From Trebouxia sp. TZW2008 (taxonomy: Eukaryota > Chlorophyta > Trebouxiophyceae > Trebouxiales > Trebouxiaceae), in the NCBI GenBank assembly GCA_002118135.1, contig BDIU01000214.1, positions 144,638 through 208,637 on the forward strand: a stretch of 64,000 nt of DNA, written 5' to 3'. The notes under the pieces are model-generated. The model saw nothing but the letters and a program-made list of their open reading frames with translations. It was not told the origin of the DNA and did not search any database. How positions within the stretch are numbered: position 1 is the first letter of the stretch; the number at the start of each line of letters is the position of its first letter. A program made the position numbers and the translations under genes. Shown here one piece after another: positions 560-63,415 of this stretch.

Positions 560-1175
560 ATATGCCTATGGTTTGCTGGGACTGCACGCGCCACACAGAA
601 GAGCGCAACAGCAGCTATTGCATGCACCCTGCTGCATTGCCCATGCAAAGCTGGTCACACTGCACATTTGGAATGCCAGGGTTGTATCCGTCACCCACAG
701 GCGTGCAACTGTAAGTACTGCATGATAGCTGTCCAATTGGTGACTCAAGTGGGCTCAAGTGGGCCACTCAACTGATGTGGTTTGCTGGGACTGCAAGCGC
801 CACACAGAAATACGCAACAGCAGCCACTATCCACACCCAATGCATCACACCCTACAAGGCTGGTCACCCTGCACGTTTGGAATGAAAAGGTTGCAGCTGC
901 CACCCTGAGGCGTACAACAGTGGACTAGGCATACTGCCTGTCTAAATGGTGGTTCGTCATGAAACAGTGTTCCATTGTTGTTGTGTGCTAGAATTTGCAA
1001 ACGTCAAACCGAGGAGCAACAGCAGCTACTACTTGCCAACAAGCATGGACCAACAGCAGACACTGCGCATTACCAATTGACTGTTGACCTCAACTATGCC
1101 TGATGTTTGCTAGGACTGCAAGCGACACACAGAGGAGCGCAACAGCAGCTACTACATGCCAACAAGCATGGATGC
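560..1175 (+). repeat. Degenerate copies of the exon A splice acceptor region
   Basis: A unit containing 'tttgctgggactgcaagcg', then 'cacacagaagagcgcaacag', then 'cagctactac' occurs near 569-640, 776-840, 985-1050 and 1101-1172. The last copy is the real acceptor and start of exon A. The copy at 1011-1049 matches the real junction (1133-1172) almost base for base over about 39 positions, including the start of the coding sequence. This is an intron built partly of duplicated intron/exon boundary. Confidence 0.75.
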
Positions 1176-1974
1176 AGCTGTGGCAGCCTTCAGAACTTGG
1201 ATGAGCCAGACAGCTGGGCCCCTGCCTTTTGCTGTGCCAGACACAACTGAGACTTGGACCAGAAACGCCAGCAGGCACGAGCTACTGAACAGATACACCC
1301 AGCACACCCAGCACTGCAAAAACTGCTCCAAGGTGAGTAGAGTCATCACTGTACCTGCCATGTCTATCATGCCTCCGCTGTGCTGTGGTAAATTGCGTGA
1401 TGCATGTCACTCAGGGGTTGCCGCATGTCTGCATTGGGCAATGCTAGTGGCTGCTGTCTTAGCTCAGCTGCAGAACATGTTGCATCATCTCAAGGATACA
1501 AGATGTATCCTTGAGATGATTCGACGTGTTCTCCAGTTGTACCCAGAGTGCAGCCAGTGACTCTTCTCAAGGCAGACATGATGATGAAGTATGCAGCAGC
1601 CCACGAGACAGTTTAGTTTGCGCAACTGTGCTACTGAGTTGATTCCGTTTTGTTCATGCATTATGTAAGCGATCACAGCTGTGTGCGTATGTGCGCCCGC
1701 TCTCTTACAGTTTCTGTGCCAAGTCTCGCCTGGCAGTCCCAAGCCTGTTGTGTTGTGTCTGCAGGCGCTGCAGGTTTTCACATGGCTGCAAAGAGCTGCT
1801 TTGGGCTTGTTGGCCTTTGCTGCTGTAACCTATGCAGCTTCTGAAGGCGAAAGCCGTGCTGTAGCGCTGAGCAGCCTTATATCTGTTGCCCTGTCTGGCT
1901 TTGCAGCGTGGCGAATCCAGATCGAGCGTCGCAAGTTTCTGTTCATGGACTATGTACATGCTGAGAGATGAGCC
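1146..1974 (+). CDS. PAO/ACD1-like Rieske oxygenase, C-terminal two exons (partial)
   Basis: Only the 3' end of this gene lies in the window. Exon A runs from about 1146 (or 1149) to 1332 and exon B from 1765 to the stop near 1971; the join is phase 0 (TCCAAG|gtgag, tctgcag|GCG). Exon A reads YYMPTSMDAAV, then a variable stretch, then ELLNRYTQHTQHCKNCSK. The 'LLxRYxxHxxxCxxC' pattern is typical of the C-terminus of pheophorbide a oxygenase and related plastid Rieske/mononuclear-iron oxygenases. Exon B encodes two hydrophobic segments (LGLLAFAAVTYAA, ALSSLISVALSGFAAW) and ends FMDYVHAER, like the family's membrane tail. The Rieske and iron-binding domains must lie upstream of base 1. A plastid-membrane role in chlorophyll breakdown or a related oxygenation is inferred from family; the exact substrate cannot be told from this end. 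Confidence 0.7.
1484..1520. repeat. Perfect 15-bp inverted repeat
   Basis: Arms 1484-1498 and 1506-1520 are perfect reverse complements (atcatctcaaggata / tatccttgagatgat) around a 7-base loop. The hairpin lies in the last intron of the Rieske oxygenase gene. I see no target-site duplication that would make it a transposon end. Confidence 0.85.
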
Positions 1975-3022
1975 AGTCTGTCCGTGTTAGCTTTTGTCAA
2001 GTCCCTGAGATTTTTTGTTGAGGGGAGACCCTTACTTGCATGCAAGTTTGATGCCCAGATCCTTGCTCATCGGTAGTATAGTTGCATGGCATTCCTGCAG
2101 GGTTGGCGTACCTTCTGAGAGCGCTCCGGCTTTGAGGTTACTTGAGCTTAGTTATGTTCTTCGAATGCTGTTATTGCTGATTTTCGATTTGTACAGTACT
2201 GAAGATGAACGTTTAGCAGAATGCACCCTGTGAGATAGGGGTTTGTTTTAGCACAAGATTCTGATTGCTCAAGCATGTACCGACTGGCTTGCTCAGCCAG
2301 GGAAGTGTCTTCACAGGGAAGTGCAGAAGCTGAGTCATTTGAGGACTGATTTGGTGCTGCTGTTCTGGCTAGCTAGCCAGAATGTCCCAGACTGGTCAGT
2401 CATGATTTGATAATGAGCTGATGTTTCAATTGTCACTTGATCTTGTTAGCAGGAAGCTGATGTTGTTTAGTTTAGATTGTAGAAAGCAGCAGCTGCTGCT
2501 GCAGCTTTAAGTGTAGCTATAGCTCACGGCCTGCAATGCGTGAATTTGACCTTTGAAATTTTGGAGAAGTGTGCATGCAGAATGTGATTCAAGGCCAGCC
2601 TGCCAGGCTGTAAACATCCTGCTTGCTGATGCGGCATACATGACTCACAGCATAGCATTGCAGCTTCATGCAGGCTCACCTTAAGGTTCGAAAGCTCTGG
2701 AAGACTTACTGCAGTAAATGCTTCCAGAAGATCACTTTTCAGACAGCCAACACATGTGTTGCCATAGTTGCTTCGAAAGAAGCAACATGTTGCTGGTCTG
2801 TATGCATGACATATCTGCATCACAGGTGAGGCAGGGTGTGCAGCCTTCTTCTTCTGCTTGTTATGAAACGTTGCATTCAAAACATGCGGCGACACTTGAC
2901 GTCTACACGGCTTGGAAATTTGAGGTGATTTCGGGCTCGAGGAAATTCGTCGGTGTTAAGCAGGAGGAGCAGCTGTGTTGGGCGAGCCGTTTACCAAGTC
3001 AGCAAGGGCTTGCCTGGGAAAG
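1975..3022. other. Intergenic region, Rieske oxygenase to DHS
   Basis: About 1 kb between two plus-strand genes. It should hold the 3' UTR of the oxygenase and the promoter of deoxyhypusine synthase. Apart from a short CAG/CTG-rich palindromic patch near 2487-2507 I see no supported feature. The short ORFs here do not resemble known proteins. Confidence 0.6.
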
Positions 3023-6049
<3,027 letters not shown>

Positions 6050-10537: not shown

Positions 10538-13500
10538 TTAGCGTGCACTTTTGTTTGATTTTCCTTTTGCAGGGAACAGTGCTTCCACAAACCGTTCACC
10601 ATCAAATGGCTGCAAATCAGCCACTGTTTCCCCAACTCCCACAAATTTGATTGGCAGCCCTAGCTCATCCACTACACTCACAACTGCGCCGCCTCGTGCG
10701 GTACCATCCAGTTTTGTCAGAATTACGCCTGTCAGCTTGACAGTCTCGTTGAACTGTCGTGCCTGATTGAGCATGTTGAGACCTGCACAACATATTGCAA
10801 ATGAGTGGTGCTGATTTCCCAATCAATTGAAAATGCTGCAACTACAGTTTCAGTACCCTGGGCCCTGAGCGTTAGTCACAATTTTTGGGAACAGACTTGT
10901 TTGCAGACAGCTTCAGATCCGTTTGACTCATTTACTGAGGCATACAACTGTTTTGGAATTGCATTATAGGACATGATGCAACAGGCTTGTTGGCAGCGCA
11001 AATAGGACTGCAGCTGAGTGGATTTGATTTCTGATCCAACAGAAATGCTTCAACTGCACTTTCAGCACCCTTGACAACTACACCAAATGCTAGCCATGAT
11101 GTCAGAGGTGCAGAGTTGATGGCAGGGCGTACCTGTTGTACCATCCAAGACAAGCAGTGTCTCATGAGGCGCCTTTGCAAGCCGCTTGCTAAGAGCCCTT
11201 CTGCATTTGGCTAGCTCCTCCATCAGGCCAAAGTTTGTGTGCAACCGCCCACTTGTGTCACAGATGACCACCTCGTATCCTTCCTTTATTGCCTGCACAT
11301 ACCAGAAATTTGGCTGTTTCCCCTGCTAATGCTGTGAGCATGGGGATCCATATGCGGGCATCACGTGTGCAAGGTCTTTGAGCCCAACTAGTATGTGCTG
11401 GTTATCACTGGTCATTACATCATCAGTCAACTGTGTACAAGGACCTTTCCGCCCTTCATGTCCAATATGATTGGTTTAGGTAAGCGCATGGCCGCACTGG
11501 TTGGAGGCGTTTGATTGCTTCTACACGTACCTAGTTGGGCCTGCTGAGCCTGCCTAGCCCACGTTCCTGATGAAATGAATTATGCACTAGCAATCAATCA
11601 ATCATTGTTTAACTGTCTTAGGAACCCAGCAGGGGGTCATGAAGACAACGTCAGGAACAAGCACAGTTGAGCCAAAAAGGCTTTGAAGAAAAATTTGTCA
11701 GTTTGGGGCAATGTTGTGTTCATCTTGAAAGAAAAACAAAACCCCACCTTTGCCTTCCCTCATGGTAATTGACAAACTAAATTATATCATGTGTGCAAGC
11801 TGGTATGGCAAGGCATGTGAAGAGGGCGAAACAACAGCTGCATGCACGGCAGCTAGCCAGAGCTGCAATTTATGAGCACAACAGTGCTTTGGCACAGCAC
11901 GACATCCTCAACAGCAAGCTGTGTCAATGAACTTGCAATCTGCGGCAGGGCCTTGCTTGTATGCAAGTTTTGTGCTTACCCTGTCCACTGACTGATAGAG
12001 GACATTGTTTGGCCGTGCATTCTCTCCGTCAATCTTGTGTACATCTACCCCGCTGCGGTCTGCCCAAAGCTGCAGCTGCTCAGCAGCTGCTGCACGAAAT
12101 GTGTCTCCAGCAGCCAGCAACACCTGCATGCAGCTGTTTTGCTGACTTGATAGATTGTCAATTGCATGCAGCTGTTCCGTCGACTTGCTGGGTTGTGAAC
12201 TACATGCAACTGTTGGGTACTTGATAGGTTGTCGATTGTATGCAGCTATTGTAGTGACGGGATATTTTGTGACGAATGCACCTTTCAGACATGCACCCAG
12301 CTGAGCACACAACAAAGCACCTGAGCAACAATGTAACACCTGCATGCAGCTACTTTGTTGACTTGATCAATCGTGACCAAGGCATTGCAAGGACACTGTC
12401 CTCAGCTGAACACACAGCACAGCATGTGAGCAACACATCGGGCATTGATGAGCCGGCGTCAACATGCACACATGCTCCGACTGCGTGCAACGATGCTCAT
12501 GCTACATTGCTGACACAGACATCAAATGCAGGTGCCAGTCCTTGTCTGCAGAAGGATTGCAGATGCAAGCCTTGTAGCAATACCTGACACCTTGACATTT
12601 TCTGAACTGAACTGACTTGTGTGCAGAGCACGTGCAAGCATCATAGCAATGACAGAAACATTGACGCTCTCTAAGGACTTATGTGCAACGCAGGTGCAAG
12701 CATGATAGCAGTGACAGACACTTTGACTCTTGCTGAGTCAAAGTCATGTGCAAAGCGAGTGCAAGCATACTGGCAGTGACATGCACCTTGACATTCTCTG
12801 AGTCGAATTTGTGTGCTAGCTTGCCAATTGTGGTCGTTTTGCCTCCTCCATTGACTCCAACAATCAAAATCACACCAGGCGGCTCATCACCAAGATTGAG
12901 ATCTGAGCTGCCACCTCTCGCTTGCAACAGCTGCAAGATAGACTGCTTCAATGCGTCGCGTATCTGCTCCCCACTTTTGATCTTTCCTTGCTTAACTTGG
13001 TTGCGGATCTGGTCCACGACCTTCAGGGCTGTTTTTGGACCAAAGTCAGCTGACTGCAGCTTTGCACTGCTTGAGTGAGTGCAGATTCATGTGCGCGTCA
13101 GACTGTGCCTATGAGATAGAGAGCAGCAATGCCTGCTGGGCGAGCTGATTGGAGCTGCAATCCAGGCATACTTACTATCAAAGCTTCTTCTAGTTCTTCT
13201 AAGGTGTCGTCAGCATCTTCCAGTGACCAATACGCGAACAGCTCTTCCACAACCTGCATAACCATCTAGGTCAGGGTTTATGACAAGTCACTGTATAAAG
13301 CAAGCAGCATGACTGCAAGTGTGAAAAAAGCTGGAATATGCATCAAGTCAAGAAACACTTACACCAAGGCGCTCTCGTGTTTTTGAGGTCCCACTAAAGA
13401 TCCTGTCAAGATCGCCCTGTGCTTTTTCCTTGAGCACTCGGCCAAGCTTCTGTATGAGACCTGGGCTTGTAGCACACACCTGCATCGCACGGGCCACCAT

Positions 13501-35700: not shown

Positions 35701-37390
35701 TACCCAATACTGAATGGGACAGTATGTTGTGAGCAGGAGACATCAGCTCTGAAGAGGGAGTTCAGCAAGCTGTGGCAGCTGCTGTGGAGCATGCACAGGA
35801 GCAGCAGCAGCATCAAGCGCTGAGCTTGGACGCAGGCCAGGCCTACCCCCAAAACACTGCACAGGTGAGGCATGCATTGCTCTTGCATATTCCCACCAAT
35901 TGCAGATCTTGCAGAGCATGCTGCAGCAATCTGCTATCACTCTGTCACCTAAAGGTGTGAGTTGAAATGGCATCCATGCGTCGCTCTGCTATGTGAAGAT
36001 GGGGCTTCACTGCTTGGCTTGCGTGCTCACAGACCAGCACATGGAATTCTGTACCTGACATCCCAGAAAAGAGCACAAGGGCTTTCAGACCTGACATGAC
36101 AATTGACACCACTTTTTGCCTGATTTGAGATGCATGCAGCACAGTCTTGTTTTTGCGCCGTGTCAAGCCAAGGGATGCTAAGTGGTTGCAAAGCACAAAT
36201 TTACAGTGTTGTCTAGAGTGGCTTGTGCTCACTTGCCAGGATCACGCCAGCTGTCGTGACCTTGCATAACGAGCAACTTGGAATGCTTAGATGAATTCAT
36301 CGAATTGTTGCTGCCAGGAATTTTCTTTGAGCACTCTGGCCGGCTTGCATGCAGATAGGTGTGATTGATGCCGCATTGCCTCAGTTATGTTGTATATGTC
36401 TACTGTGGCTGCTGCAAGCCACAGTGGAGCGAGCTTTCTGTTGTAATTCTGACTGGCATGCAGGTGGGTCTGGGTGATGCGGCACTGCCCCAGCATGCTG
36501 CTCTGCTGAGAGACAGCAATGCAACTGCACCCAGCCATGGGGACCCTTCAGCTGACCTTGCAGAGACAGGCACTCAGACAGATGCGGTAACCTCACAGAC
36601 AGGCACTCAGACAGACGCTGACACTGCTCAAACAGGCACTCAGACAGGGTCATTGAAAGGAGAAGTACCCGACAGCTTGTCCAGCAGTGATGACAGACAC
36701 AGTTTGCAAGACAGTGTCAGCGATGCCATCTCAGGACTGCTGGACACTGCAAGCAGCCTGGACAGATTGCAGTCTGATGACAGCAACAAGGGTGAGGTGA
36801 ATGTGGAGCAACCGCTGCAAGCTGAGCGTCAACAGACAGAACCCATTGCACCTGGCAGCAGCAATGCTATAGACAGTGATGAGCCTGCTGTGAGTCAGTC
36901 AGGTGTAAATATCAGTGATGGCCAAACTGACTTGCAAACAGCAGACCACAGGACAGCCGGTAGCTCAGACGCAGACACAGTGTTTCAGACAGAAGCTCAG
37001 GATGTGGGCTCAGCAGCTCAAGGTGAGCAGGCTCACTCAGTGCCTCAAGAAGCGGCATGGGACAGCAGCCATAGTGATGCAGGCACACAGTATCAGACAG
37101 ACTCACAGGATCTGTCCGCAGTGTCTGACTTTGCACCCAGGCAGTCCGTTGCTCAACAGTCAGGGGCTGCAAGTGATGATGAAGCAGATTCGCAAGAAGG
37201 TGTTGCCAAACGCCCTGTCACGCAGCAACAGATGGACGAGACAGGCTATGGAGATGCCTTCGCTGCCATCTTAGCAAGCATTCCTGACCATGTAAGGGAT
37301 AAGTCTGTGGAGCAACAGACTGATGAGCCTCAGGAGGACAGTAAAAAGGATGTTGACAGTCAAGACTTGCTTGAACATTCAGAGCTCTAG
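32793..37390 (+). CDS. SEC20-like: Sec20/BNIP1-family SNARE with giant C-terminal extension
   Basis: Qb-type SNARE of Golgi-to-ER retrograde fusion. Exons: 32793-32983, 33069-33243, 33579-33978, 34806-34963, 35122-35503, 35737-35864, 36464-37390. All in phase, 786 aa; usual Sec20 proteins have 230-380. Residues 1-122 are helical (QDRLQRYQQQYQDIQASYSQ). The SNARE motif and anchor lie in exon 3 (QRSRQVMLEQIDNTQSILAS ... KVTKEYQGQ ... LVLYGGAAMFLLVCLYVI, about residues 199-217). Everything after should be lumenal: about 570 residues rich in Gln, Asp, Ser and Thr, with three TGTQTD repeats and two copies of a 26-residue motif (VTDQQMRDSGHAEAFAKI near 391, VTQQQMDETGYGDAFAAI near 730). Reading into intron 3 gives an early stop at 34013, hence a short 262-aa form. 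Three junction duplications lie in its introns. Confidence 0.8.
33427..33615 (+). repeat. Triplicated acceptor and exon start, Sec20 intron 2
   Basis: 'tgctgcaattcag' + 'aatgaagcagaactggg' (AG at 33439), 'tgctgcaatacag' + 'actgaagcagaagtggg' (AG at 33522) and 'tgctgcaatgcag' + 'acagaagcagagctggt' (AG at 33578, the real acceptor). Each copy includes polypyrimidine-side sequence, AG and about 20 bases of coding sequence. Confidence 0.85.
33836..34170 (+). repeat. Duplicated exon 3 end with donor, Sec20
   Basis: The stretch 33840-33990 (second half of the membrane anchor through the donor IKG|gtaagcag) is repeated at about 34018-34175, including a second IKG|gtaagcag. The copy still reads as protein (LVCLYIIQK ... 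TGLGKLV ... SSAKDIDHLTRPIKG), but its link to the first copy contains a stop. Divergence is moderate (roughly one base in eight by eye). Confidence 0.85.
34618..34865 (+). repeat. Duplicated acceptor and exon 4 start, Sec20
   Basis: 'ccttcttgtgatgcag' + 'caataggggatgatcc' + 'aggcacagacggcctt' at 34620-34692 repeats the real junction 'ccttgttgtgatgcag' + 'caagagcagatgatcc' + 'cggcacagatggcctg' at 34788-34861. If the upstream acceptor were used, the frame would stay open for only about 25 codons. Confidence 0.85.
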
Positions 37391-39491: not shown

Positions 39492-42400
39492 TCAAACGAA
39501 CACAGCAACAATGTGCAACACAATGATGTATATCATTGCTGCTGCTCTAGCAAGGGGTCTCTGATCCATGCCTACAAATACCCGATCCAACTGATGAGCA
39601 CCCTTCACAATGAGTCTGTTGTTGAAGGGCATTGGGGCACCCCTGACTAGCCCTGCCAAGGGCTGAAAGCCCCCAGCCCCACCCCCTGTTAGCACGGCTG
39701 CTTCAATGTCAAACTCGTTATCCTCATCTTTCTTGTTGGTGATGAGGTGGGGAGGAGAGGTCTGCCTCTTGGCACGGGCCTGCAACAGCAAAGTAAAGAT
39801 CAGTCCAGGAATTTGAGGGCAGCCATGCCCCGCATGTCTTTGAAAGGAGGCATGTATGAGCTGTGTTTGCCTCTTGGCACAAGCCCGCAAAAGCAAAGCA
39901 CAGATCAGTGCAAGAAAGTACGGTCTGCAGTGAACTTCATGCATTGGTGCTGAGGTGTTGCTGTCGATGACTGATGCAGTCAAAGCAGAGTGCAAAGTAT
40001 TTTGCATCCTGAGCAAATGACATCTGAATCTGCAATGTGAATGTCGTGAGAGTTTGCTGAAGATGTAGCAGGAGTGCATAACATGTGTTTTCAAAACAAA
40101 CTTCTTGTCCTCAATGCTCAACAGACCGCAAGAAGTAATGCTGGACCTGTGTAGCGCTTGAAATACATGCTTGACACACACAAACAAGCATAAAGAGAGT
40201 ATCTCTCATAAGGTTTTGATAGTGCCAATCTGCTGGTTGAAGAGCTGCTCAAGCTGTGTGATGCACTTGTTCCATATGCTTGGGATACAAACATGAGACA
40301 GAACTGAAAGATGTGTTGTGACTGCGTCCACACACTGATATTGATATCACATGAACAGAATGACCTTCATGTCATGTCATCATACCTGCTGCTGGAACAG
40401 CTGCTCCAGCTGTGTGGCGCGGTTACGCTGGGTCTCCATCTCAGCCCTCAGGGCCTGGGCCTCCCCCCTGGTCTGCACCAGGCTCAGCTCTAACCCTGCC
40501 ACCTGCTGCTGGGCCTCCCTCAGTCTCACACCACCTCCATCACTGGTGCTGCGATCCGCTGACATCACCTGAGGTGCTGCCGGTGCTGCCGGTGCTGCCT
40601 CTGCACAGCAAAGAGTGTCGTCAGTATTGAAATGCTTGCTAGTATGATGCTGCTGGGTCTTCAACCTCTGCCCCTCTTGCATCACTGGTGCTGCAATCTG
40701 CTGCTATGACCTGAGGTACTGGCCCTGCACAGCCAAGAGAACAAGCGCCGTTGAGGTGTTCTCTAGTCAAACACCATCATGCTGCTGGGTCTCCCGCAGC
40801 CTCACACGCCCTCCATTGCTGGTGCTGCAGTCCGCTGACATGACCTGAGGTGCTGCGGGGGCTGCCGCTGCACAGCCCAGAGCATGACGATCACCTCATT
40901 GGAAGGATCAGCATGGTTATAACATCGTCATGTTTGACAGGATCTTTTCTTTCCACTATCATCACTGCCGTCATCATTTAGGCACAGCATCATCAACATA
41001 GTTGCTTGAATGCTTGCTAGTGAGGCTGAATGACCCTGCTGAGCAGAAACAGACGTGAGGCAGTGTGCCCAACCACCCAGGTCCTGTCAGCACATTGCAG
41101 CACTGATGACAACAGATCGTTGAAGCTGTGGTCTGCTGACATGACCTAGGGAGCTGCAGCTAAACCCTAAACCCTCTGCAGAACCAGGAGGCATCATCAG
41201 CATCATTGTGTTCATCATCACGTAATGTGTGAGTCATGACTTGTTGCTCTGCTCTCAGATTCTTGAGCCTGAGTGCTGAATGTGTGTTTCACTCTAAGGC
41301 TGCCTGGAAACAACAAACTGCCACTAGCCTCAGTGACAACAGAAGCAGTGCACTGTCTTCAGGTCATGTCAGTGGACCCTGGCACCGACGATGACAAAAG
41401 CATTCAAGCCTGTCTGCTGACATGACCTTTCGAGGTGCAGGGACTGCCTTTGCATTCCCAGGAGCGGTACTGAACAAAGTAGACGTCAAAGATCTGAGCA
41501 GCTGTGCAGAAGCCTGCTGTTGAACAGAATCATAAACTTGTCTTGCAGACGGGGCTGAATCAACATTTGTTGCCAAGAGTGTTGCAAAAGCCTTGAGCAG
41601 AAGTGCAAGCTTTTGCAACACTCTATAAGTGTAAGTGATAATGTGCGTAGGTGGCAGAGAAGTCACCTCTGTGAGTGGATACGGTCTGGGCTTGCTCCAG
41701 CTGGGCAGTCAAGTCCTGCAGGCGCCCCTTCAGCTCCCCATATCCAGCCTGCAACTCAACACCGGCATTATGCATTATGAATTACCATCAATGTGATACG
41801 CCTGCGTGTACCTGGCATCAATGCCAAACGCATGCATGCTGCACTGCCTATGCTGCATGCTTTGTGGCCTCCTGCCTTCAGGTTGACCATGTTGTTTGCT
41901 ACAGACTCAGCTCAGAACAGGTTGGTGGCACCCAGATGCTGTGAGATCTGTGCTTTTGACATATTATTGCTCAGACTGGCAGACCTTAGTAGCTGGCAGA
42001 TCAACATACAGATGACTTGGACAAGAGCTGATGCAATAAGCATGAGGTTGACATACACAACAGCTGATACATGAACAACATGACTGCCAGATGTAGACCC
42101 TGATGCGACAAGCCTGTACTTGTCTACAACGTGAACCGATGCGACAATCACACAGCAGCTGAGTGGCTGGAACTGCAGCTGACCTGAATGCATCATGCCG
42201 CTGCAGGTCAGCATGCACTTGAGTTGATGCAGCAGGTTTCCCGCTGCCTGAAACAAGAGCTGATGCTACAATTGCAAAGCAGCTGAAGGGTCAGATATAG
42301 CAGCTGTTCACCTGAAGCGAGGAGTTCTGCTGCTGCAGGTCAGCATAGGCATTACGCCACTCCTCAATGTCATCGCCACTGCTGCCAGCAGTCTCTCGCA

Positions 42401-45400: not shown

Positions 45401-48400
45401 ACATGTGCGACACGACCATTTCAGCTAAGAAATTCATGTGGCCTTACAATGCGCACAACATATTACATTCAAACAACAGTTGTGCAGACACACTTCCCTG
45501 TATAAGCTCAACACCCTCAGACACATGTGACACAAGCCTGCAGTAACTGCTTTTTGCGGTCAGCATCTCCTATACAGGTCACATCACTTGTCACAGACAG
45601 AGCACACTTGTTTGATGGAGTCCTGTACGTGTTGCCATGCATGCTGAAGCTTGATAATGGCAATATCCTCAGACTGACCTGATCAGACAGCTGTTGAATT
45701 CGCTGCACATCTGCAGGAAGGCTTGCAACAGACTTGCTGTTGGCCTGTTCTAGGTCGGCAGCCATGTGGTCGTGCTGCTGCTGCAGCTGGGTCAACGACT
45801 CCTGAGACTGCGCCAACTGCTCCTCTAGGCTGTGAGCAGACTCCAAAGCTGACTGTGCCGCTGCCTGAACCACAGCAACACCAAAGTCAGAAAAAAGGAA
45901 AAGTCTGCGGCATGACAACAGGAGCCTGTGCCAAGTCAGCAGCCAAGCTATTGTGTTGCTGCTGAAGCTGGGCCAAGGAGTCCTTGGACTGCGGCAACTG
46001 CTCCTCTAGGCTGTGAGCAGACTCCAAAGCTGACTGTGCTGCTGCCTGCACTCCAACAACACCAAAGTCAGAGGAAAACGCAAAGTCTGCTGCATGATAG
46101 CAGAAGATTTTTCTAAGGCAGTAGCCAAGCTATTGTGTAGCTGCTGAAGCTGGGTCAAGGAGTCCTTGCGTCAACTGCTCCTCTAGGCTGTGAGCAGACT
46201 ATAAAGTGGACTGCGCTGCTGCCTGCACTCCAGTCTACCAATATCTCAGCTACAGCTCAACTGCTTTGCAGCTTTCACACTGTTCATGTTGTCAAAGCAC
46301 ACTTTCCACACAGCAAGTTTTCTTGTCCAGGCTGGCAGGCTGTGCGGTCAAGATGACCCCAGAGTGCTATGGAGTGCTTATATTGCCACATGTTCCAGCT
46401 GATAGAGCACACCATATGGCCACACACACCTAGCAGTATATGCTGGAATGTGTAAAGATTATTATCATTAGAACCATACGGCCACAACCAAGTGAACAAT
46501 GATGAACAAAGATGAACAAAGGTGTCAGCGTGCAACAAAAGCTTTTATTGAGTCAACAACTGGGGGTGTGGCAAAATGGGTTTGGGCCCAAGGATCTAGT
46601 GAGCCTTGGTCAGGACAGTCAGCTAGAATGTGCTGCAAAATGCATCTGGCAAAGACCGCAGACTTCTTTTGGGTGTATACACGACACATCATTTTGTGCT
46701 CCCGCTATAGTGTCACAGCGTTTTGGAGTATCTGTTAAGGCTGGCATGCTATGCAATGGAGAGCATTGCCACACCTCCAACAGCAACATATGTCTTCAAG
46801 AAGCAAAACATGTTCACATAAAACATGCAAAGCTACTGATCCACAACATGTGTCCACAATGAGCTTCCACTCAAGACAACCATCTGCAACACAAACTTAG
46901 CCAAGGCAAAAAGCATGTGTGTCGCGCAATGGGTTTGAACCCAAGTCTCTAGTGAGCCTTGTTCAGGACAATCAGCTAGAAACGTGCTGCAAATGCATCT
47001 GGCAACGACAGCATCCTGTAACTTGGTGATCATATGTTGTGTACTCCTGTGATCTGCCTCTTGCTGTATTATTATGGTACCCATGACTACCTAGGCCAGC
47101 ATGCTATGCAGTTGACAACGTAATCAGAGTTGCACCAGCAACACTGTTGCCACATGTCAAAGCTACTGACACACAACATACGTCCACAAAAAGCAAAACC
47201 TTCTCACTTGAGAGTTTGATCAGCGAAGCTACTGATACACAACAGGTCTCTACAATAAGCTAAAGGCTTTCATGCAAGACAACCCTCTGCAACAAAAAAG
47301 CTTTGCTGAGGCAAAAAGCAGATGTGTCGCGCAATGGGTTTGAACCCGAGTCTCCAGTGAGCCTTGTTCAGGTCAATCAGCTAGAAACGTGCTGCAAATG
47401 CATCTGGCGACGACAGCAACCTGTTACTTGGTGAACATATACTGAGAAACTCTGTAATCTACCTGTTTTGGACGACTATATCATCCATCACTACACTGCT
47501 GTGCCAGTCAAAAAACTTTGCATACATGCTGTGGTGTACGTGTCTGCACACTGTTGCAAGTGCACTACATGGAACTAACATTGCAGCAGATTTGCCATTC
47601 CAAGATGTTTGCAGTCCATGCAAGGCCTCGCAAACAGCCCGGACTGCTTGGATAATTATATTGATCACTCAGAGACGTCTTAGCAATGACTTGTCAGGGA
47701 GAATGTTCTATTGTCTCAGACATACATGCCATGTTTGTCATCTTGCTATTGCCTCGCACACTTGAGCTTGCTTCCTCTGTGCTTCAGCATCTACCCTAGC
47801 CTCTCCACCTTCCTGTGACTTTTCTGTTGTCTTCTATGCCATTGCCTACCCAAGCTAGACACCACAGGTCACGCAGACCCTGCTAGTCAGACCATCACTG
47901 CTCAATGATTTACATCGGACTTGAACTGACACATCATAAGACACTGAATCCTAAATTATTTTTCTGTCATCATGTTTGTCTGCCTACCTGAGCTTGGTCC
48001 CTCTGTGCTTCAGCGTCTTCCCTAGCCTCTACCCCTTCCTGCAGCTCCTGCCCTAGCCGCCGCTGTGACTCAACCATCTGACTCAGCTGCCTCTCAGCCT
48101 GCTGCCCTTGCTCTTCTTGCTTCTTCAATGCAGCCTCGGCCTCTGCCAATCTGTCCTTAAGATCACGCTCAGCTTGCTTGGAGCTTTGAAGCTGAGCTTG
48201 CAGCTGCTGCAGCTCATCAGCGTCTGAGGCCTGCGCAGACAGATGGGACAAGTGACATTGCCACTCAACAGCAAGTGATTTTGCAATCCAGAGGGGTATG
48301 CTGAGCTGCACCTGTCAGGTGCCAGACAAGACACAAAGAAGAATGGCTATTCCCCTGTTAACCAGAAATGGCCTGCGCACTGGCATGAGCAACAGATCCC

Positions 48401-49204: not shown

Positions 49205-49245
<41 letters not shown>

Positions 49246-51628
49246 AGATAGATAGATATTACAGTCCGGGGTAGGGAGATAGATGTGACTCATGGGACTT
49301 CCTGGCTTGAAAGCACAGGTGAATGTGTCTGGTACTGACGAGGGCTTTCAGCTGCGGAATGCAAAGCTCCAACTGACCTTTGATTCATGACCACTGACTA
49401 TCTGCATCACTGACCTGAGCTTGTGGCTGGGCCATGCGCTGCTGCAATTTGGCCTTGCTTTGTTTCATGACAATGCACTGACAGCACCATTGACCTGGGC
49501 TTGCAGCTGTGCCATGCGTTGCTGCAACTTATGCTTTCTCTCTGTTTCATTGCAAAGCACTGACTGCATCACTGACCTGGGCTTGCAGCTGTGCCATGCG
49601 CTGCTCCAGGTCTGCTGTCTGCTGCTGAGTTGCAGCCTGCAGGTCCAGCACTGCTTGCTGCTGCTGGCTACCCAAGGCCGCCTTGGCCTGCTCCAAAGCC
49701 CCCTTCAGCTCCTCAGCACGCCTAGCGTGCTCCTCAGCATGCCTAGCATGCTCCTTGAGCTGCTTGCTGACCTGGCTCTTATGCTCTGCATCGGCTTGCT
49801 GAGCGGTTTGCAGGCTGGCCTCGGTCTCCTCAACCTGATGTGCACAGCCATGTCAGGGGCAGTAGCAGCAGGAGGCATTGCAATGAGTCATGATACAGAA
49901 TGCAACAGCAGATGCACCGGTCTCTCACTTTGCCCAGAAGGCTTTCTGTAGTCATGGCAATGTCAGAGTTGGACTTATTGCACCTGCAAGCTGCATTCTG
50001 TTCTGGTATTTGCAGTTTTCTTAGGGTCCTAGCATGTCATGAAGATCTGAGGTGAGATGACTATTCCACAAGGCTCAAAAGGACAATTTTGAGTGGCGAC
50101 GCCACAGATCTACTGGTTGGTGATACGTCCTCTGTATCGGCATTGATTAGAGTCAGATGCAAGCCTGATGAATGCAGGAGTTGTAAGAGCATGAATCAGG
50201 GTTGATGCAGGTGGTCCTGTGTTTTGCAACTGACAATACGGCTTTGCTCAAAGATAGGCATATCAAGCTTGCTGTCACGTTCAACATGTCAGAGTTGGCT
50301 TGCTACTTGATCCTTGCAAAGTACTCTTAGCATCTCAATCTCCATTTGATTGAAACAACTCAGCTGTACCTGAACCAGTATGCAGAGGCCCTACCTGACG
50401 CTGAGACTCTGTCAGCTGAGCCTGCAGCTCCTCCTCACGGGCTGCAGCAGCATCCTGAGCCCGCTCCAGGCTGTTTGTCAGCTCCTGCACCTGCACCGCG
50501 CACCAGCAATCAAGCTTTTGCACATTGCAGAAACACTGACTCTGTCGTTCACAGGAGTTCATCATGTTTGTTGCAGGCCAAGTTCTTGACTGCAGTCTTG
50601 AGCTGCAGCATGATCCTGAGCTCAGTCCAAACTGTTTGTCAGCTCTTGTACCTGCGCCACTCAGCAGCAATCAAGCTGGCGCCTGTTTCGCAACCACATG
50701 ACCATGCCAAGAGTTGCATTGGTGTGATGATGCAGGCTCTGTTCTTGAAGGCAGACTGCAACTGCATTCTGAGCCTGCTCCAGAGTATTCGTCAGCTCCT
50801 GCACCCGCACCACATCAAGCAAATTCATAAGCAAGCTCTTGCTGATGGCAAGGGCCAGGCAAAACCGTTTCATGCACAATGGCAATGCAAACAATCTGCC
50901 TTGCCCTGCAAATGGTCTACAGAAAAGTCAGCACTGCTCCCAGCAGGTCAAGTGATAACAACACTCAAGATATTGCACAAGTTCAACTCATGCTGCCTCA
51001 TGGTGCCTGCCACGAGGGATATGGGCATCCAGTTGCCTTTCCAAAAACATGACATTTGATGTAAGGACATGCTTGTTGCAAAGACAACGCAATTGGGAAC
51101 CAATCACCGCAATTTTACTCCAGTCTTACTTCCGCAGGCACTGTAATCAAGGGATAGGACTTGTGCCACACACACCTAGCAGTATATGCTGGAACATGCA
51201 ATGATCACTAAGATTATTTAGTATCATTGTAAACAAGCGCGACCATTGCAACAAGTACTGCTGTACCTGTTGCTGCACCTCTGCATGGTCAGCTCTCAGC
51301 TGGTCTTCCTGGCTCTGTGCGGAATCCTGCACGCTCTCCAGCTCACCAGTCAAAGCTTGCACCTGCAATGGACCACAGACTGATGAGGATGCTGTGCACA
51401 CACCAAGTGTACAAGTTAGCCCCTGGTATCTGATGCAAGTCAATGAAGTGCAGTTCTCAAAGCCAGCCTCCATGCGAGAAGAACGCCTGTGTGGTCAGCA
51501 CCCACAGTTAGCAAATGATATCGCCGTGAGATGCAAATCAGGCCATGTCACAGCCTATGCTGACGCAGACCATCTGCTTTTCCTGAGCCTCTGAGATGAC
51601 AGACAAGCCATGCAAAGTGACACAGACA

Positions 51629-51661
<33 letters not shown>

Positions 51662-53821
51662 ATACAAAGAGACACAGCGTTGCACACAGACCCCAACAAA
51701 CAAGACCCCTGTGCATTCCATAAAACAGCAGAAAGCAGTACCTGTGCCCTCAGCCTCTTGGTGGCAGCTTGCATGTCTGCCTCCTGCCTGTCCCTGTCAG
51801 CAGCGGCCTCTTGGGCCTCCCCCAACTGGGCTGTCAAGCTGGCCACTTCAGTCTCCAACTGCTGCTGAGTGGTGGTCAGCTCTGTGATGTACTCCTCATT
51901 GATCTCTGCTGCTTCACGTAGGGAGGCAGTCATCTGAGCGTCTTTGGCTGCCAGCTGCTCGTCTTTGGCTGCTAGCTGCTCATCCTTCTGAACTAGCTCA
52001 TCCTCTTTTGCTGCAACCTGCAGGTTTCAAATCTTTGAGACACAGGCTTTGTTTACATGATGTACTGTTCGTTCATCTCTGCTGCTTCACATAAGGAGGC
52101 AGTCATCTGAGCGTCTTTGGCTGCCAGCTGCTCGTCTTTGGCTGCTAGCTGCTCATCCTTCTGAACTAGCTCATCCTCTTTTGCTGCAACCTGCAGGTTT
52201 CAACATCATTGAGACACAGGCTTTGTTTACATGATGTACTGTTCATTCAACTCTGCTGCGTCACAAAAGGAGGCAGTCATCTGAACGTCTTTGGCTGCCA
52301 GCTGCTCATCTTTGGCCGCCAGCATGTCAACTTTCTCAGCTACCTCATCCTCTTTTGCTGCATTCACCTTGGGATGCTGTCTTGGCTTGCAGGCTGACGG
52401 CATCATAGGGGCTATCAAAATAGGGAAAAACGCTGTGGCAAGTTCTGCTGTAACGTATGAGGACGGCGGACAAGACTGCCCCCATTGTGCAGCCAGGCAG
52501 GGCACTCAGTGCATTCAAGACATCGGGCCCAAGAGGCACACACAGAAGTATAGCAAATGCTGTACATGAACACAAATTAAGTAAATGCAATTGCCCACAA
52601 CTGCTGCATGCAAAGTCAGTGACTGCTGAGCGGCATTGAGCGGCATTGCCGGCAATGCAAACGCAGCGTGAGTGCACGTGCGCTGCTAATCAGCTCTGCA
52701 CTGCATACCTGATTCTGAAGGTCCATCAGCTGCTCAGCCTGGTACTCCAGCTGCCCCTGCACTTGCTCTACTTGATCCTGAGCCTGCTGCAACCTATCTT
52801 TCAACACCTGCTGCTCTGAGGTTGCACTGGGACTGCTGTCCACTGCAGTGGCCGGCCCTTGGGGCTCTGCACCTTTCTGCTTTCCCTCCTGCTGCTCAGG
52901 CTGCACAGGTGCTGCTGCTGACGCTGCAGGTGACTGTGCAGCTGATTTTGCAGCTGGCTGCGCAGTTGGCTTTGCAGCTGGCTGAGCAGGTGCTGATGCT
53001 GCTGACTGAGCAGGTGCTGATGCTGCTGACTGAGCAGGTGCTTTTGCATCTGACTGTGCAGAAGATGCCTTTGCAGCTAGCTGGGCATGTGCTTTTGCAA
53101 TTGGCAGTGCATGCGTCTGCTCAGGTGCTCGTGAAGCAGGTTGAGCAGCTGATTGGGCGGTGTCAGCCTTTGAGTGCGCAGCTGGTTGTTTAAGGGCTGG
53201 TGCAGCTGCCTGCGTCGCTGCCTGGTGCTCACTAGGTGATGAGCTGTTTGACCTAAACAACCTGGTCTTGGCTGTCTTGCCACTGGGTACTTGACTAGAC
53301 TGTGATGCAGCAGATATGTTCTGTTTGGCTGCATGAGGTGACTCTGGGCTGCTGGAAGGCTGCCGATTGTGGCTGGTCCCTGGCCTGCCTCCTGAGGACG
53401 ACACTGGAGAGGATGGACCTTTTGGTGCAGCCTCCTGCTTTGCTTTCGCTGCTGCCCTCGCTTCCTTCTTGGCTTTCTTCGCTTTTGCAGCATCTTGCAT
53501 GGCACGAATGTCAGCAAAGCTCTTGCCTTTGAACTTATTCAGGGTGGCAGAGAAATCGTGCTTGGGTCTCTTGTCCTCGGTGTACTGGGCCTGTGGCACT
53601 GGCAGGCCAGATGCCTTTGCTGCTGCTATGGCCTCCCTTTCCTGCCGTTGATGCAGACTGAACATCGCCTGCAGAAGTTGCAAGCGATTACAACACAAGG
53701 TGCGTCAAACACTCAGTGCCGAGCATCTCATGTCTGTAGCGCTTACATCAGCCCTGCCAACAGCAACCAAGTCGATGCCATTGGAAAAGCGTTTGGACGC
53801 TCTGGGTTCTGCGCCCTCCAT
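39492..53821 (-). CDS. Golgin-84-like coiled-coil protein with C-terminal membrane anchor
   Basis: Long tethering-type protein, 18 exons, 1,449 aa. Exons: 53747-53821, 52709-53668, 51742-52017, 51267-51362, 50395-50490, 49577-49834, 48711-48836, 47988-48230, 45679-45864, 44816-45382, 44382-44486, 43814-43900, 43029-43376, 42312-42557, 41667-41748, 41427-41554, 40386-40568, 39492-39779. All joins keep frame, and 16 of 17 introns are phase 0. The N-terminal 300 residues are Ala/Pro/Ser-rich with KGKSFADIRAMQDAAKAKK. Exons 2-17 are heptad-rich coiled coil (QLQADLESSQEQ, ADLEQRMAQLQAQ, many Gln runs). The last exon ends RPLARAAAMIYIIVLHIVAV, a single hydrophobic tail like golgin-84/GC1 (RRYPxARxxxxxYxxxLHLW). 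Golgi membrane tethering is inferred from this architecture. Coiled coils align poorly, so the family name is less sure than the gene structure. Confidence 0.72.
39779..39905 (-). repeat. Copy of last-exon acceptor in golgin intron 17
   Basis: On the minus strand the real junction 'tttgctgttgcag' + 'gcccgtgccaagaggcag' (39779) is repeated about 110 bp upstream as 'tttgcttttgcgg' + 'gcttgtgccaagaggcaa' (39840-39900). The AG of the copy has decayed. Confidence 0.75.
40386..41430 (-). repeat. AG|GT-containing tandem copies spanning golgin intron 16
   Basis: The minus-strand motif 'AG|GTCATGTCAGCAGAC' or a near variant occurs at about 41427 (the real donor of exon 16), 41150, 40843, 40712 and 40568 (the real acceptor, CAG|GTGATGTCAGCGGAT). 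Each copy is preceded by a Pro/Ala-coding 'GCACCTC' stretch. Donor and acceptor of this intron are thus members of one tandem family. A copy of the exon 17 end (cagcttgagcagctc) also lies at 40222-40262. Confidence 0.75.
42902..43097 (-). repeat. Duplicated exon 13 end with donor, golgin
   Basis: The plus-strand stretch 43027-43095 (cacctgggcgcgggcctgag ... agcctgtgtaaggcg) is repeated at 42903-42970 (cacctgagagcgggcctgag ... ggcctgagcgaggcg). It includes the donor and the coding end QVADAASKDLAQARAQ. The offset is about 124 bp. Confidence 0.8.
45785..46235 (-). repeat. Three copies of exon 9 start with acceptor, golgin
   Basis: The exon 9 start (45864) is repeated at about 45963-46075 and 46140-46240, spaced about 180 bp. 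Shared plus-strand strings are 'aactgctcctctaggctgtg' and 'agctgactgtgctgctgcct'. All copies keep sequence from both sides of the acceptor. Confidence 0.8.
46405..46472 (+). mobile_element. SINE-like dispersed repeat, copy B
   Basis: Reads ggccacacacacctagcagt, atatgctggaatgtgtaaag, then attattatcatta. Same core and tail as copy A, here in golgin intron 8 next to the tandem units. Confidence 0.6.
46510..47430. repeat. About 350-405-bp tandem units in golgin intron 8
   Basis: Three diverged units share 'gggtttgaaccc' or 'gggtttgggccc' (46578, 46931, 47336), 'agtgagccttg(t/g)tcagg', 'tcagctagaa' and 'gtgctgcaaatgcatctgg'. Units 2 and 3 also share 'aggcaaaaagca' and 'gtgtcgcgcaatg'. The gggtttgaacccgagtctcc string looks like a tRNA T-arm, but no full tRNA fold is present. 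Confidence 0.75.
49204..49258. repeat. (AATC)n-(GATA)n microsatellite
   Basis: Nine or so tandem 'aatc' units followed by three 'gata' units, in golgin intron 6. Confidence 0.9.
49425..49620 (-). repeat. Three copies of exon 6 end with donor, golgin
   Basis: The plus-strand string 'gacctgggcttgcagctgtg' + 'ccatgcgctgctcc' marks the real donor and exon end (49577). Copies lie at about 49494 (ccatgcgttgctgc) and 49412 (gacctgagcttgtggctggg), spaced about 82 bp. Confidence 0.8.
50395..50815 (-). repeat. Three copies of exon 5 start with acceptor, golgin
   Basis: Minus-strand copies begin near 50810, 50660 and 50490 (the real exon), each with 'gcag' and then a VQELTN(S/T)L-coding stretch. The two upstream copies soon meet stops or lose frame. 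Spacing is about 150-170 bp. Confidence 0.8.
51151..51225 (+). mobile_element. SINE-like dispersed repeat, copy C
   Basis: Reads ggacttgtgccacacacacc, tagcagtatatgctggaaca, then agattatttagtat. Lies in golgin intron 4. Confidence 0.6.
51631..51661. repeat. (GGCA)n microsatellite
   Basis: Seven tandem cagg/ggca units in golgin intron 3. Confidence 0.9.
51905..52372 (-). repeat. Three copies of exon 3 start with acceptor, one perfect, golgin
   Basis: Exon 3 begins at 52017. The block 51922-52030, which crosses the acceptor, recurs at about 52095-52203 with no difference that I can find over about 109 bases, and again at 52268-52372 with many changes. The middle copy encodes the same KEDELVQKDEQLAAKDEQLA stretch and ends in a possible donor (atcat|gtaaac). 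Confidence 0.88.
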
Positions 53822-60180: not shown

Positions 60181-61541
60181 CTACTTGATGTATTGTGATA
60201 GCCAACGGAAGCCTTCGCCATAGCCCATCCTGCGAACCTGCATGTGCAGCAGGGACAGCATTTGATTCTGTGCCATTGTGGTATGCTGCAGAACTTCATG
60301 AGCTTTGTGATTTGGCACAGACAGCTCACCACACTGCACATAAATATCTCAATGGGTCGCATGCTGGAGTCCTTCAGCTCAACTTTGCCCTTGCCGCTTG
60401 TGTAGTTTTGTAGTCCCAGCGCAAGACGAAGCTCGTCTTCAGGGGCAGCCTGCAAAAACAGCATCAGCTGTCATAACATGTTCTGATTTCGTGTCCATCC
60501 ATCTAAGACATGACATGCATGTGCATCGACCAAAGTAAGAGCTGATGCACAATCAAGAGTGTGACAAGCAAGGTCTTTGATGCCAGACAGGCTGAAGTTG
60601 CCATAAGAAGTGTGAGAAGTTCTGAGCTGTGTCAACTAATGCTGCGCCAAAAAGAAGCAATGAAAATAATGAGATTTTGACCTGTGGGACATCAATTTTG
60701 TTGCCCAAGATGAGGAATGGCACGCTTGCCAGGCCATCATCAGACAGTAGGCTGTCCAGCTCCTTTTTGGACTCAAAGAAGCGTTCACGGTCTATCGCAT
60801 CAACTAGGAACACAATTGCATCCACCTACGTGATTGCCACATTTGTAAGTGCAGGAGGAGAAGCAAGCGCTTCACGCTGCGCTGCACAAGTAAACAAGCA
60901 TTGCCAATGACTTCAGGCCCTTAGCTGTACCTTGGCATAATAGTCTTTCCAGACACGCCTTGCTATTTCATGGCCACCCAAATCAAAGGCTTTGAAGTTG
61001 ATGCCTGCTAACTGTAACTCCTGCATTTCCAAATGTACCTCTTTGAACGATACAATCAACAACTTGCAAAAGTAACACATTGTGCAAAGCTTTGCCAGCA
61101 ATGCTTCATCACTACTCCTCAGCTTGAAGAAAACCCGCAGCAATTACCTCGGATGTGGGATACTGTGTAGGCTGATGCTGTGCAAGTCGCTCATCTTTCA
61201 GCATATGCATCAAGGTGGTTTTGCCTGCATTGTCCAAACCCTGCACTCCAAGCAGAGTGAAGTTGTACAGTATGCTGCGGCAGTAGACGACTGTCATTTT
61301 GGACAGCCCTTAGAAGGATAATGCAATACCAGTCGCACGGTACCGCGTACGCTCACCAGAAAGAGGATTTTGGCATTTTTATTGTACAGCCCCAGTGAGT
61401 TCAGGATCCCATAAAACCTGCAGGTTGCGCACACGCCGAGCCAAGTCAGCACTGCAACAGATTGAGCGCTTGCCTTTTAGTCATAACGCGTGAGAAACGT
61501 ATCAACGAAACGACATTGGCTCACCAGTTTACAAAGAACAT
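60181..61541 (-). CDS. SAR1: SAR1 small GTPase (COPII coat)
   Basis: ER-membrane GTPase that recruits Sec23/24 to start COPII vesicles. Exons: 61525-61541 (17 bases of coding), 61357-61417, 61148-61240, 60931-61020, 60682-60825, 60330-60449, 60181-60237. In phase, 193 aa, exactly the usual SAR1 length. The N-terminal helix [19 protein letters not shown] replaces the myristoylated helix of ARF. GTP sites: GLDNAGKTT (G1), the switch I threonine in [23 protein letters not shown] (switch II with His as in SAR1), [10 protein letters not shown] (G4) and the C-terminal [16 protein letters not shown] tiny first coding exon is common for this family. All functional motifs are intact. Confidence 0.97.
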
Positions 61542-61945
61542 GGCTGTGTTGTCTGCCTCAAGGGTAAACTACTAAGTCAGCAAACAGCGCTTGCACTTTC
61601 TTTGTGTCTCGTCGGTGGTGATCTGGGCAGACAAGCCCTCTGCCAAACTTCCGGTGTCAGATCAATTGCACACGCAAGAAGCTGAACAACGATCACCACC
61701 GCAGAGGGCACTCGCGGTGAGACCGTGCATGCCTCGGCAACTGCCCTGAAGAAGAGGATTAGCGAAACTTCTGTGCTATGACTAATGGCATTCAGCAAGG
61801 TGCTACAGACAGCGCCATGCTTGTCTGATGAACTCTGCTTTCCCTTCATTGAGGGCAGCGCGTCAGCAATGTGACTTTGCATGCATGCCAGCTAGCCTTT
61901 TGCTGAATATCAGGCAAACATAAACGCGTCGAAACAATCTAGACC
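61542..61945. promoter_or_regulatory. Bidirectional promoter, SAR1 / tRNA-binding-domain protein
   Basis: 404 bp between divergent ATGs, expected to hold both promoters. No element identified with confidence. Confidence 0.5.
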
Positions 61946-63415
61946 ATGCAAGCTCACAGCCCGATCAACCTTGCCGACTTTCAGAGGATTAGGTTCATCG
62001 CAGCAAAGGTCGCCAGCGTGAAAGTCAACAAGACTGCCAGAGTTCCCGCATATTTATGTTCCCTCGACGTTGGTGCTCCTCTTCTTGAGGTGCTGTATCT
62101 CATACTCTAACCAGCTGCAAGCGACATGACCGGCAAGACGCTGCTGCAAACAACCGCTTCCTGTGGCACAGGTGCACATGCTTCTAGTATCCCTAGTCTG
62201 TCTAGATCCTACATGTGTCTGCAGTCACAGCATGGCAGTCACAGATGTCACTGCACAAGCTTGCAGTTTGTCACACTGTAACAGCCAGCAGCAAGTGAGA
62301 ATGTAGCTTGAACTCGTGCATTGCAACTGCAGGAGCACCAGAAGCTACACGGCAAAGCATCTTATTTCAGTTCTGCACAGCTCACAAAGCAGCACACCAG
62401 GGATCAAGTAGAGGGTCAAACTGTTCTGGTTGTGGCAAACTTTCCCAGAAAGCAGATTGGCCCACGGATGTCTGACTGTCTGATGACTGGGGTGCAGAAG
62501 GACTGTCAAGATGTTGAAGCTCGCAGGGACAGTACTGTGCTAGTAGCATGCTCTCATGCTGTTGAGCCAGGAACTTTGATTACACTGAATGGTAAGCAAT
62601 GAAACGAGTCACTCCTCATTGCATATACAGCAAAGTCAGCTGACTCAATTAATAATCCCTGAAAGCTTCCAATCACACATGTTGAGCCAGAATCTCTGAT
62701 CACACTACATGCTAAGCAATGCAACGGACTACTCCTCACTGCCATATCCAGCAAAGTCTGCTGAGTCACTATGCCCCATGGCGTCCTCAAGATCCATATC
62801 ACACTTAAGTGTGATGAATGTATAAGTGCTGCAGGATGTAGTGTAAAGGTGTCATTGCATCAAGCCAAGTCAGATGATGCTGCATGCCAGTCCTTTTGCA
62901 TCAACCTGTGCAATTTTCCAGCACTTGTTGCAAGTATCTGGCCAACAAGACAAGCCTGCCTTGGGAGACAAGACCTTTGCCACATACACCCAGCAGTATG
63001 TGCTAGAAAGTGTGATTGAGATCATTACTATATGTTTGCGTGTGCAGGTGTGTCTAGCCAGCTGCAAGAAAACTCCAGAGATTTGTTGTGGGATCAGTTC
63101 ACTGCTGCACAGGTGCAGGTTGGGAGAGTAAAGCATGCTGAAGCAAGCGATACTGAAACTGACCCACGTTCTGGTGACTTGTGTACATATGATCTGCAAA
63201 TAGACTTTGGAAGTAGCACTGGAACACAAAAGGCAGTTGCTGTCTTGAGTAGCAAGGTGTTTGAGACATTGCAGGCTTTGTTGGACAGGCAAGTGCTTGC
63301 TGTGATCAATTTATCAGATGATTTGAGTACTGTCACAGTTTCAGTGTTGTCTGTGGCTGGCAAAGCTGTGCTACAGCCAGCAAAGCAAGTAGACAATGGC
63401 TACATTTTGGCTTAG
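61946..63415 (+). CDS. Protein with two CsaA-like tRNA-binding (EMAPII/OB-fold) domains
   Basis: Exons: 61946-62089, 62333-62591, 63048-63415, in phase, 256 aa. The first domain covers exons 1-2: INLADFQRIRFIAAKVASVK, YLCSLDVG, SSAQLTKQHTRDQVEGQTVL, VVANFPRKQIGPRMSDCLMT. This matches CsaA and the C-terminal OB fold of MetRS/Arc1p (SAQIT ... GkqVvaVvNfpPrqIGpfmSe). The second, in exon 3, is more worn: AQVQVGRVKHAEA, YDLQIDFGSSTGTQKAVAVL and DRQVLAVINL keep the strand pattern but lack the IGPxxSE loop. A tRNA-binding or aminoacylation-cofactor role is inferred from the domain. Two such domains in tandem without a synthetase is uncommon. The intron 1 donor (GAG|gtgctg) is weak. Intron 2 holds a copy of the exon 2 end. 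Confidence 0.82.
62558..62768 (+). repeat. Duplicated exon 2 end with donor, tRNA-binding-domain gene
   Basis: 'gttgagccaggaactttgat' + 'tacactgaatggtaagcaat' (62561-62600, real donor) recurs as 'gttgagccagaatctctgat' + 'cacactacatgctaagcaat' at 62680-62719. About 45 bp of intron downstream is also copied (cactcctcattgcatatacagc / tactcctcactgccatatccagc in part). The copied donor has lost its G. Confidence 0.88.
62949..63035 (+). mobile_element. SINE-like dispersed repeat, copy E
   Basis: Reads acaagcctgccttgggagac, aagacctttgccacatacac, ccagcagtatgtgctagaaa, gtgtgattgagatcattact. The first 20 bases match the start of copy D. Lies in intron 2, just before the acceptor of exon 3. Confidence 0.6.

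Follow-up and report, generated by a model that had tools for sequence, protein, structure and literature searches.

The window analysed here is a 64,000-nt stretch of the genome of the green alga Trebouxia sp. TZW2008 (contig BDIU01000214.1, positions 144,638 to 208,637 of the forward strand). Six of its genes (a Rieske/PaO-like gene, cpFtsY, SepSecS, Sec20, a golgin and a tRNA-binding-like gene) have introns that contain nearby copies of their own exon/intron junctions. Such copies are present in 11 of the 73 introns that could be tested, and all of them outscore 281/281 control junctions taken from other loci. They occur on both strands and on donor and acceptor sides, as a sequence-only reading of the window had described, and in four of the 11 introns both sides are copied. 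That reading had placed them in a dozen or more introns of five genes; the observation is real, with a count of 11 introns in six genes after the addition of SepSecS. Its mention of perfect copies is not borne out, since the highest identity is 92.1% in the window and 95.3% in the larger sample.

To form the sample, the window was supplemented with 213 kb in 22 stretches drawn from 17 contigs, one of which is the window's own, giving 23 sequences and 277,457 bases, or 0.4% of the genome (68.5 Mb, 527 contigs). Among its 313 introns of at least 150 bp, 53 carry a copy of one of their own junctions at a score of at least 34, compared with 0/313 for the junctions of other genes; at a stricter score of at least 46 the counts are 38/313 and 0/313. 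The 53 introns are distributed over 19 of the 23 sequences, in line with the earlier view that this is more than one accident. Donor-side and acceptor-side copies coincide in 12 introns, where 3.4 would be expected if they were independent (32 × 33/313). Detectable copies are twice as frequent for windows placed on junctions (43/328) as for windows placed entirely within introns (22/328; P = 0.009), a difference that could arise if the exon half decays more slowly. In many introns of this alga, short stretches of the same gene recur close by, and often these consist of some exon together with its splice site.

Each junction window spans 120 bp (80 bp of exon and 40 bp of intron) and was scored against the remainder of its own intron. 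The window's testable introns comprise 66 from the gene model (at least 120 bp), five transcript-supported introns of Sec20 (at least 120 bp) and two from genes cut by the window ends, which the gene finder missed and which were handled manually. The gene finder was purpose-written and trained on the sample, where it called 469 introns with a median length of 245 bp and the consensus sequences TGCAG↓G (acceptor) and CAG↓GT (donor). It recovers cpFtsY and SepSecS, whose exon joins KV↓LLAAGDTF and QPK↓AAGSSLL are contiguous in the solved structures of FtsY (2og2) and SepSecS (3hl2). It also mistakes copies for exons and is likely to predict spurious short introns within repeats, and the model-dependent counts inherit this error. 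The golgin introns are those of the gene model; a search for golgin transcripts gave no scored match. The closest named proteins are from Trebouxia, with 80% identity for the TBC protein of a second locus in the sample (L016) and 54% for Sec20.

Table 1. Junction copies and related repeats in the window.
Feature	Positions	Strand	Copies	Copied site and basis
Rieske/PaO-like gene	561..1172	+	Acceptor (between 1122 and 1123) and start of next exon, copied at 561-625, 780-829, 979-1049	AG retained in 1 of 3
cpFtsY intron	12124..12786	-	Donor side 12682-12742, 12620-12675, 12564-12605; acceptor side 12335-12367	ATGCAG intact in acceptor-side copy
SepSecS intron	31333..31597	-	Acceptor array, period 86; 31421-31468, 31505-31551	GTGCAG retained in 2 of 2
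Sec20 intron 2 (33244-33578)	33417..33578	+	Acceptor 33417-33455	AG retained; intron ends set by transcript-derived P0101
Sec20 intron 3 (33979-34805), donor side	33841..34169	+	34023-34169 copies exon end and donor of 33841-33987	82% identity; GTAAG intact; score 7.1 (real donor 5.0)
Sec20 intron 3, acceptor side	34607..34861	+	34607-34694 copies acceptor and exon start of 34774-34861	84% identity; TGATGCAG intact; score 8.0 (real acceptor 7.9)
Sec20 intron 6	36344..36463	+	Weak acceptor copy 36344-36384	GCATGCAG intact; score 37 (control maximum 29)
Golgin intron	39780..40385	-	Acceptor 39865-39916; donor exon edge 40230-40260	AG lost (TTGCGG); gene model only
Golgin intron	40868..41666	-	Weak acceptor copy 41412-41454	AG lost; score 36 (control maximum 31); gene model only
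Golgin intron 46046-47987 and edges	45743..47987	-	Donor 47736-47815; acceptor 46148-46232	GT retained; AG retained; gene model only
Golgin intron 50491-50756	50441..50813	-	Donor 50569-50660; acceptor 50602-50677	GT lost; AG retained; gene model only
Golgin contiguous array	51885..52362	-	Period 173-174, 2.8 copies	92% identity, best in window
tRNA-binding-like gene	62560..62768	+	Donor region (GT starts 62592) copied at 62680-62768	GT changed to CT

By gene, three acceptor-side copies were counted in the Rieske/PaO-like gene, three donor-side and one acceptor-side copy in cpFtsY, two acceptor-side copies in SepSecS and one donor-side copy in the tRNA-binding-like gene, together with introns 2, 3 and 6 of Sec20 and four golgin introns; Sec20 intron 6 and the golgin intron at 40868-41666 are the weak members of the set. 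The joined exons of the Rieske/PaO-like gene match PaO (PF08417, E 5.6e-9), with the exon start judged by eye and no transcript, and the tRNA-binding-like gene matches tRNA_bind at an E of only 0.1, under the Pfam cut-off. The golgin array at 51885-52362 is partly coding in the model, and its acceptor-side copy (52286-52362) lacks the junction. The golgin intron at 46046-47987 also holds intron–intron pairs, such as 46784-47062 with 47174-47467. In cpFtsY, positions 11445-11549 form an insert in the model (residues ~412-445) that the alignment to solved FtsY skips and that is probably a false exon. The model also joins a SAR1-like gene (59562-61541) to a downstream small-protein-like reading frame; these are likely two genes. 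Rfam and tRNA scans of the window gave no match.

The junction copies belong to a larger population of local direct repeats. Self-comparison of the window gives 47 direct pairs, 43 of them less than 800 bp apart, and in the sample a threshold of 42 bits yields 199 local direct pairs, spread over 20 of the 23 sequences (0.72 pairs per kb). This search is blind to spacings under ~50 bp, because blastn culls near-diagonal hits; TRF was used for short periods. Chance does not account for the pairs: shuffled sequence gives none at 40 bits or above. All are local and in the same orientation. The spacing is 60–700 bp in 193/199 pairs, and pair density peaks at 100–200 bp and drops ~200-fold past 1 kb. 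Inverted pairs within 1.5 kb at 42 bits or above number zero in the sample; at 34 bits there are none under 1.5 kb and four at 1.5–2 kb. The copied material is exon, junction and intron alike, with 43/199 pairs joining intron to intron. Repeats cover 12.8% of exon bases, 10.5% of intron bases and 3.3% of unassigned bases, or 1.5% of the last once the two missed genes are removed. Pair identity peaks at 75–85%. The copies differ by ~5–36% and contain indels, unlike misassembled repeats, and independent transcripts agree exactly with the exons of two genes. An assembly artefact, which the absence of near-identical pairs in this single assembly could be taken to suggest through collapse, is hardly credible as the source.

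The copies were described as tandem in the sequence-only reading, a term that fits 38 of the 199 pairs, which are contiguous, and not the remainder as such. Another 73 pairs are spaced and linked through an intermediate copy, and 88 are spaced and unlinked, with a median gap of 78 bp and a median length of ~78 bp. Ordinary head-to-tail duplication followed by decay and deletions, in which the spacers correspond to portions of the repeat unit that have eroded or been deleted, accounts naturally for the contiguous and linked pairs, and the SepSecS and golgin arrays are truly tandem. As an explanation of the whole it is possible and on balance unlikely, given the 88 unlinked pairs and the near-background similarity of the flanks of spaced copies. 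In 46 spaced pairs with at least 80% identity, flank similarity is 12.4 and 12.1 relative to a background of 11.5. Spaced copies have sharp ends: in 24 junction pairs, two of them contiguous, the intron-side flank scores 12.0, where 29.6 would be expected if homology continued and 11.4 at random. Near-background flanks around spaced copies would be expected if a templated insertion had been made locally, or if a duplication had been rearranged at once, and less readily from simple tandem duplication with neutral decay.

Copied splice sites could act as decoys, and two genes with transcripts, Sec20 and the TBC gene, indicate how they are treated. Both were chosen for having repeats, with one transcript per gene, and minor isoforms lie outside the reach of this comparison. 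Protein P0101 (749/749 residues) maps exactly onto Sec20, and P0001 (757/757 residues tried, from residue 68) onto the TBC gene. The 2,545-base ‘lgn’ contig encoding P0101 is shorter than the 4.6-kb gene, indicating that P0101 is the product of a spliced transcript; the source contig of P0001 has 2,772 bases. The ‘lgn’ set is presumably an assembly of public reads. Copies of an intron's own flanks are present in 8 of the 13 introns of these genes, and none is spliced in. In Sec20 intron 3, splicing bypasses both a donor copy stronger than the real donor and an acceptor copy of equal score. A 95% copy of the start of the next exon lies in TBC intron 5 and is skipped by the transcript; the copies in TBC introns 3 and 4 have lost their AG, and among the donor-side matches in TBC some score at control level. 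The gene finder took skipped copies as exons in both genes. The 600 bp on the exon side of each of the 26 Sec20 and TBC junctions hold no copy, so that the sites used are the outermost ones. In both transcript-checked genes, then, the copies are passed over and the outermost sites are joined. Across the sample, a wholly intronic second copy lies on the intron side of the junction in 42 of 43 cases.

The copies decay as neutral DNA. In 48 readings of coding copies there are 188 synonymous and 316 nonsynonymous changes, 20 stop codons and 41 frameshift gaps; by a rough estimate this fits one constrained and one neutral line. Decoy dinucleotides show no significant difference from control GT and AG: GT is kept in 31/55 cases (control 57.8%, P = 0.89) and AG in 39/50 (control 67.9%, P = 0.17), and selective disarming or retention of the decoys was rejected on this basis. 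Junction images within predicted exons keep AG in 36/38 and GT in 32/44 cases, figures that cannot safely be interpreted because the model calls copies as exons. The earlier expectation of ready decoy splice sites is well founded, since intact, well-scoring copies are present. In the two genes with transcript support, splicing takes the outer junctions. The accompanying expectation of alternative exons finds no such support, as the transcripts skip the copies and coding copies decay neutrally. That the copies are alternative, mutually exclusive exons or regulatory decoys under selection is very unlikely. Some decoys do score as well as real sites (Sec20 intron 3, cpFtsY, SepSecS), and a copy at 4839-4916 of locus L011 differs from its exon by five synonymous changes only. 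Against this, the overall codon pattern is neutral, with stops and frameshifts, decoy GT and AG are lost no differently from controls, and just one copy is present in the transcripts of two genes, as in solved homologues.

A genome search, from which common words were left out, bears on whether the copied sequences belong to a dispersed family. The Sec20 and cpFtsY introns match their own locus only, and the golgin and SepSecS introns contain, in addition, short dispersed elements, none spanning the intron. The copies are local and gene-specific, as first proposed, and introners were rejected as their source: two of the four searched introns match nothing beyond their own locus, the elements in the other two do not span them, and pair density drops with distance. 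One dispersed element of ~50–80 bp occurs at window positions 46418-46470, 51165-51216, 55063-55143 and 62950-63031, on both strands and with 88–96% identity; it has at least 40 matches on other contigs (40 of 156 candidates scored) and no Rfam match in the window. A second, of ~50–125 bp, lies within a SepSecS intron at ~31736-31895 and has at least 39 other matches at 73–90% identity (40 of 66 candidates scored).

The explanation we favor, with a probability of roughly 0.66, is short-range copying within genes in which the outermost splice sites are kept, introns are lengthened and the copies decay as neutral decoys. Stretches of ~40–150 bp (exon, exon with splice site, or intron) would be copied in the same orientation, usually to a site 60–700 bp away. 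Where a copy lands within an intron and the real junction remains the outer one, the protein would be unchanged, because splicing would continue to use the outermost donor and acceptor; the intron would grow, and the copy and its decoy site would then decay. The copies probably arise by break repair or by template switching at replication forks and not by simple unequal exchange. Net intron growth may be the general outcome. Intron coverage by repeats rises from 5% at 300–400 bp (n = 69) to 16% above 1 kb (n = 8).

Several observations weigh against this explanation. Coverage is highest in the shortest introns, at 29% under 80 bp (n = 48), which we attribute to spurious short introns predicted by the gene model where repeats occur; the length classes are confounded by this error, and growth by copying is therefore directly demonstrated only in introns supported by transcripts or homology. 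Intergenic coverage is 1.5%, compared with 10.5% in introns, though both should be neutral. Only one of the 199 pairs has at least 95% identity, which is odd for a steady process; young copies may be scarce because copying came in a burst long ago, because the assembly collapsed them, or for some other reason. The 73 linked pairs are laid out as arrays would be. Microhomology may be present at copy ends, with GCAG/CTGC in 24% of end windows relative to 12.5% inside, and this excess may be an alignment-end effect. The words TGCAG/CTGCA occur ~10 times per kb in the sample, about five times the equal-base expectation.

Copy ends also differ from what random breakpoints would give. Among 42 single-junction copies, 16 have an intronic overhang of 13 nt or less, compared with 8% when breakpoints are simulated at random and exons are made to decay more slowly; copies often end 5–13 nt past the splice site. 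The exonic overhang shows no such difference (7% observed, 7% simulated). The associated P of about 1e-7 is too small because the pairs are not all independent. Under a null in which 188 pairs were placed within genes, repeats straddle junctions no more often than expected at margins of 10–15 bp (83/188 with at least 15 bp on each side; null 81.4 ± 6.0), contrary to the preference for splice sites that had been anticipated, and less often at 30 bp or more (47; null 57.2 ± 4.4). Most hits on junctions thus follow from the shortness of exons and introns and the large number of duplications. An excess appears at 5 bp only (116; null 98.2 ± 5.6), where acceptors alone give 92 relative to 70.3 ± 5.8. 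A null not restricted to genes gave acceptors at 74 relative to 56.7 ± 5.8. This small-margin excess is a separate feature, for which the favored explanation gives no reason. Together with the short intronic overhangs, the rarity of intergenic copies and the direct orientation, it would suit copying aimed at exon edges, in which exon pieces ending just past the splice motif are copied through a mechanism coupled to transcription or splicing, possibly with pre-mRNA as the template. This is an improbable account: there is no enrichment at 15 bp or more, 43/199 pairs are intron–intron, the junctions come mostly from the gene model, and GCAG/CTGC is so common a word that some alignments may stop at it by coincidence. 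We consider it equally doubtful that transcription- or splicing-coupled capture of own junctions grows introns throughout the lineage, with an outermost-site rule holding against equally strong decoys.

Short-range copying within genes has counterparts in other systems. Plant break repair produces tandem duplications and filler DNA, which like the present copies are short direct copies of nearby sequence. The Trebouxia case appears to differ in its density of 0.72 pairs per kb and its frequent capture of splice sites. Frequent local duplication inside genes, another likeness, has reportedly been described by Gao and Lynch in 2009. Unlike such internal gene duplications, the copies here are often partial exons and junctions, and within introns they evolve as neutral DNA.

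Intron gain by tandem duplication is the closest published parallel. In the potato RdRp case (PMC4974935), an existing intron–exon boundary was copied; exon and splice-site sequence is likewise duplicated beside introns, and the protein can be preserved by splicing. One Drosophila case of intron gain by tandem duplication (PMC2809761) and short direct repeats at intron borders (PMC11782384) are also on record. In Trebouxia it is existing introns that lengthen, and many copies are spaced, two features that set it apart from known gain by tandem duplication. Intron creation by duplication of AGGT was rejected, as a donor aligns to the acceptor of the same intron in only 1/199 pairs. Introners (PMC9860276) likewise add sequence to introns of many genes; here no dispersed family was found behind the copies, and the introns of Sec20 and cpFtsY match their own locus only. 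Duplicated exons in tandem that are spliced in a mutually exclusive manner (PMC9741552) are likewise adjacent exon copies with splice sites, whereas the present copies are often partial, neutral and skipped in the two genes checked. No description of such copies in Trebouxia or other algae was found in a search covering titles and the beginnings of abstracts, or in the portions read of PMC12712428, PMC8226300 and PMC6652019.

For annotation these results are a practical warning, as skipped copies may be called exons by gene finders. For the biology of the alga they describe one route by which introns lengthen without transposons. The 53 of 313 introns that contain a copy of their own junction constitute a natural experiment, in which similar splice sites lie a few hundred bases apart in the same gene, and splice-site choice, tolerance of decoys and the birth of new exons become testable genome-wide from public RNA reads.

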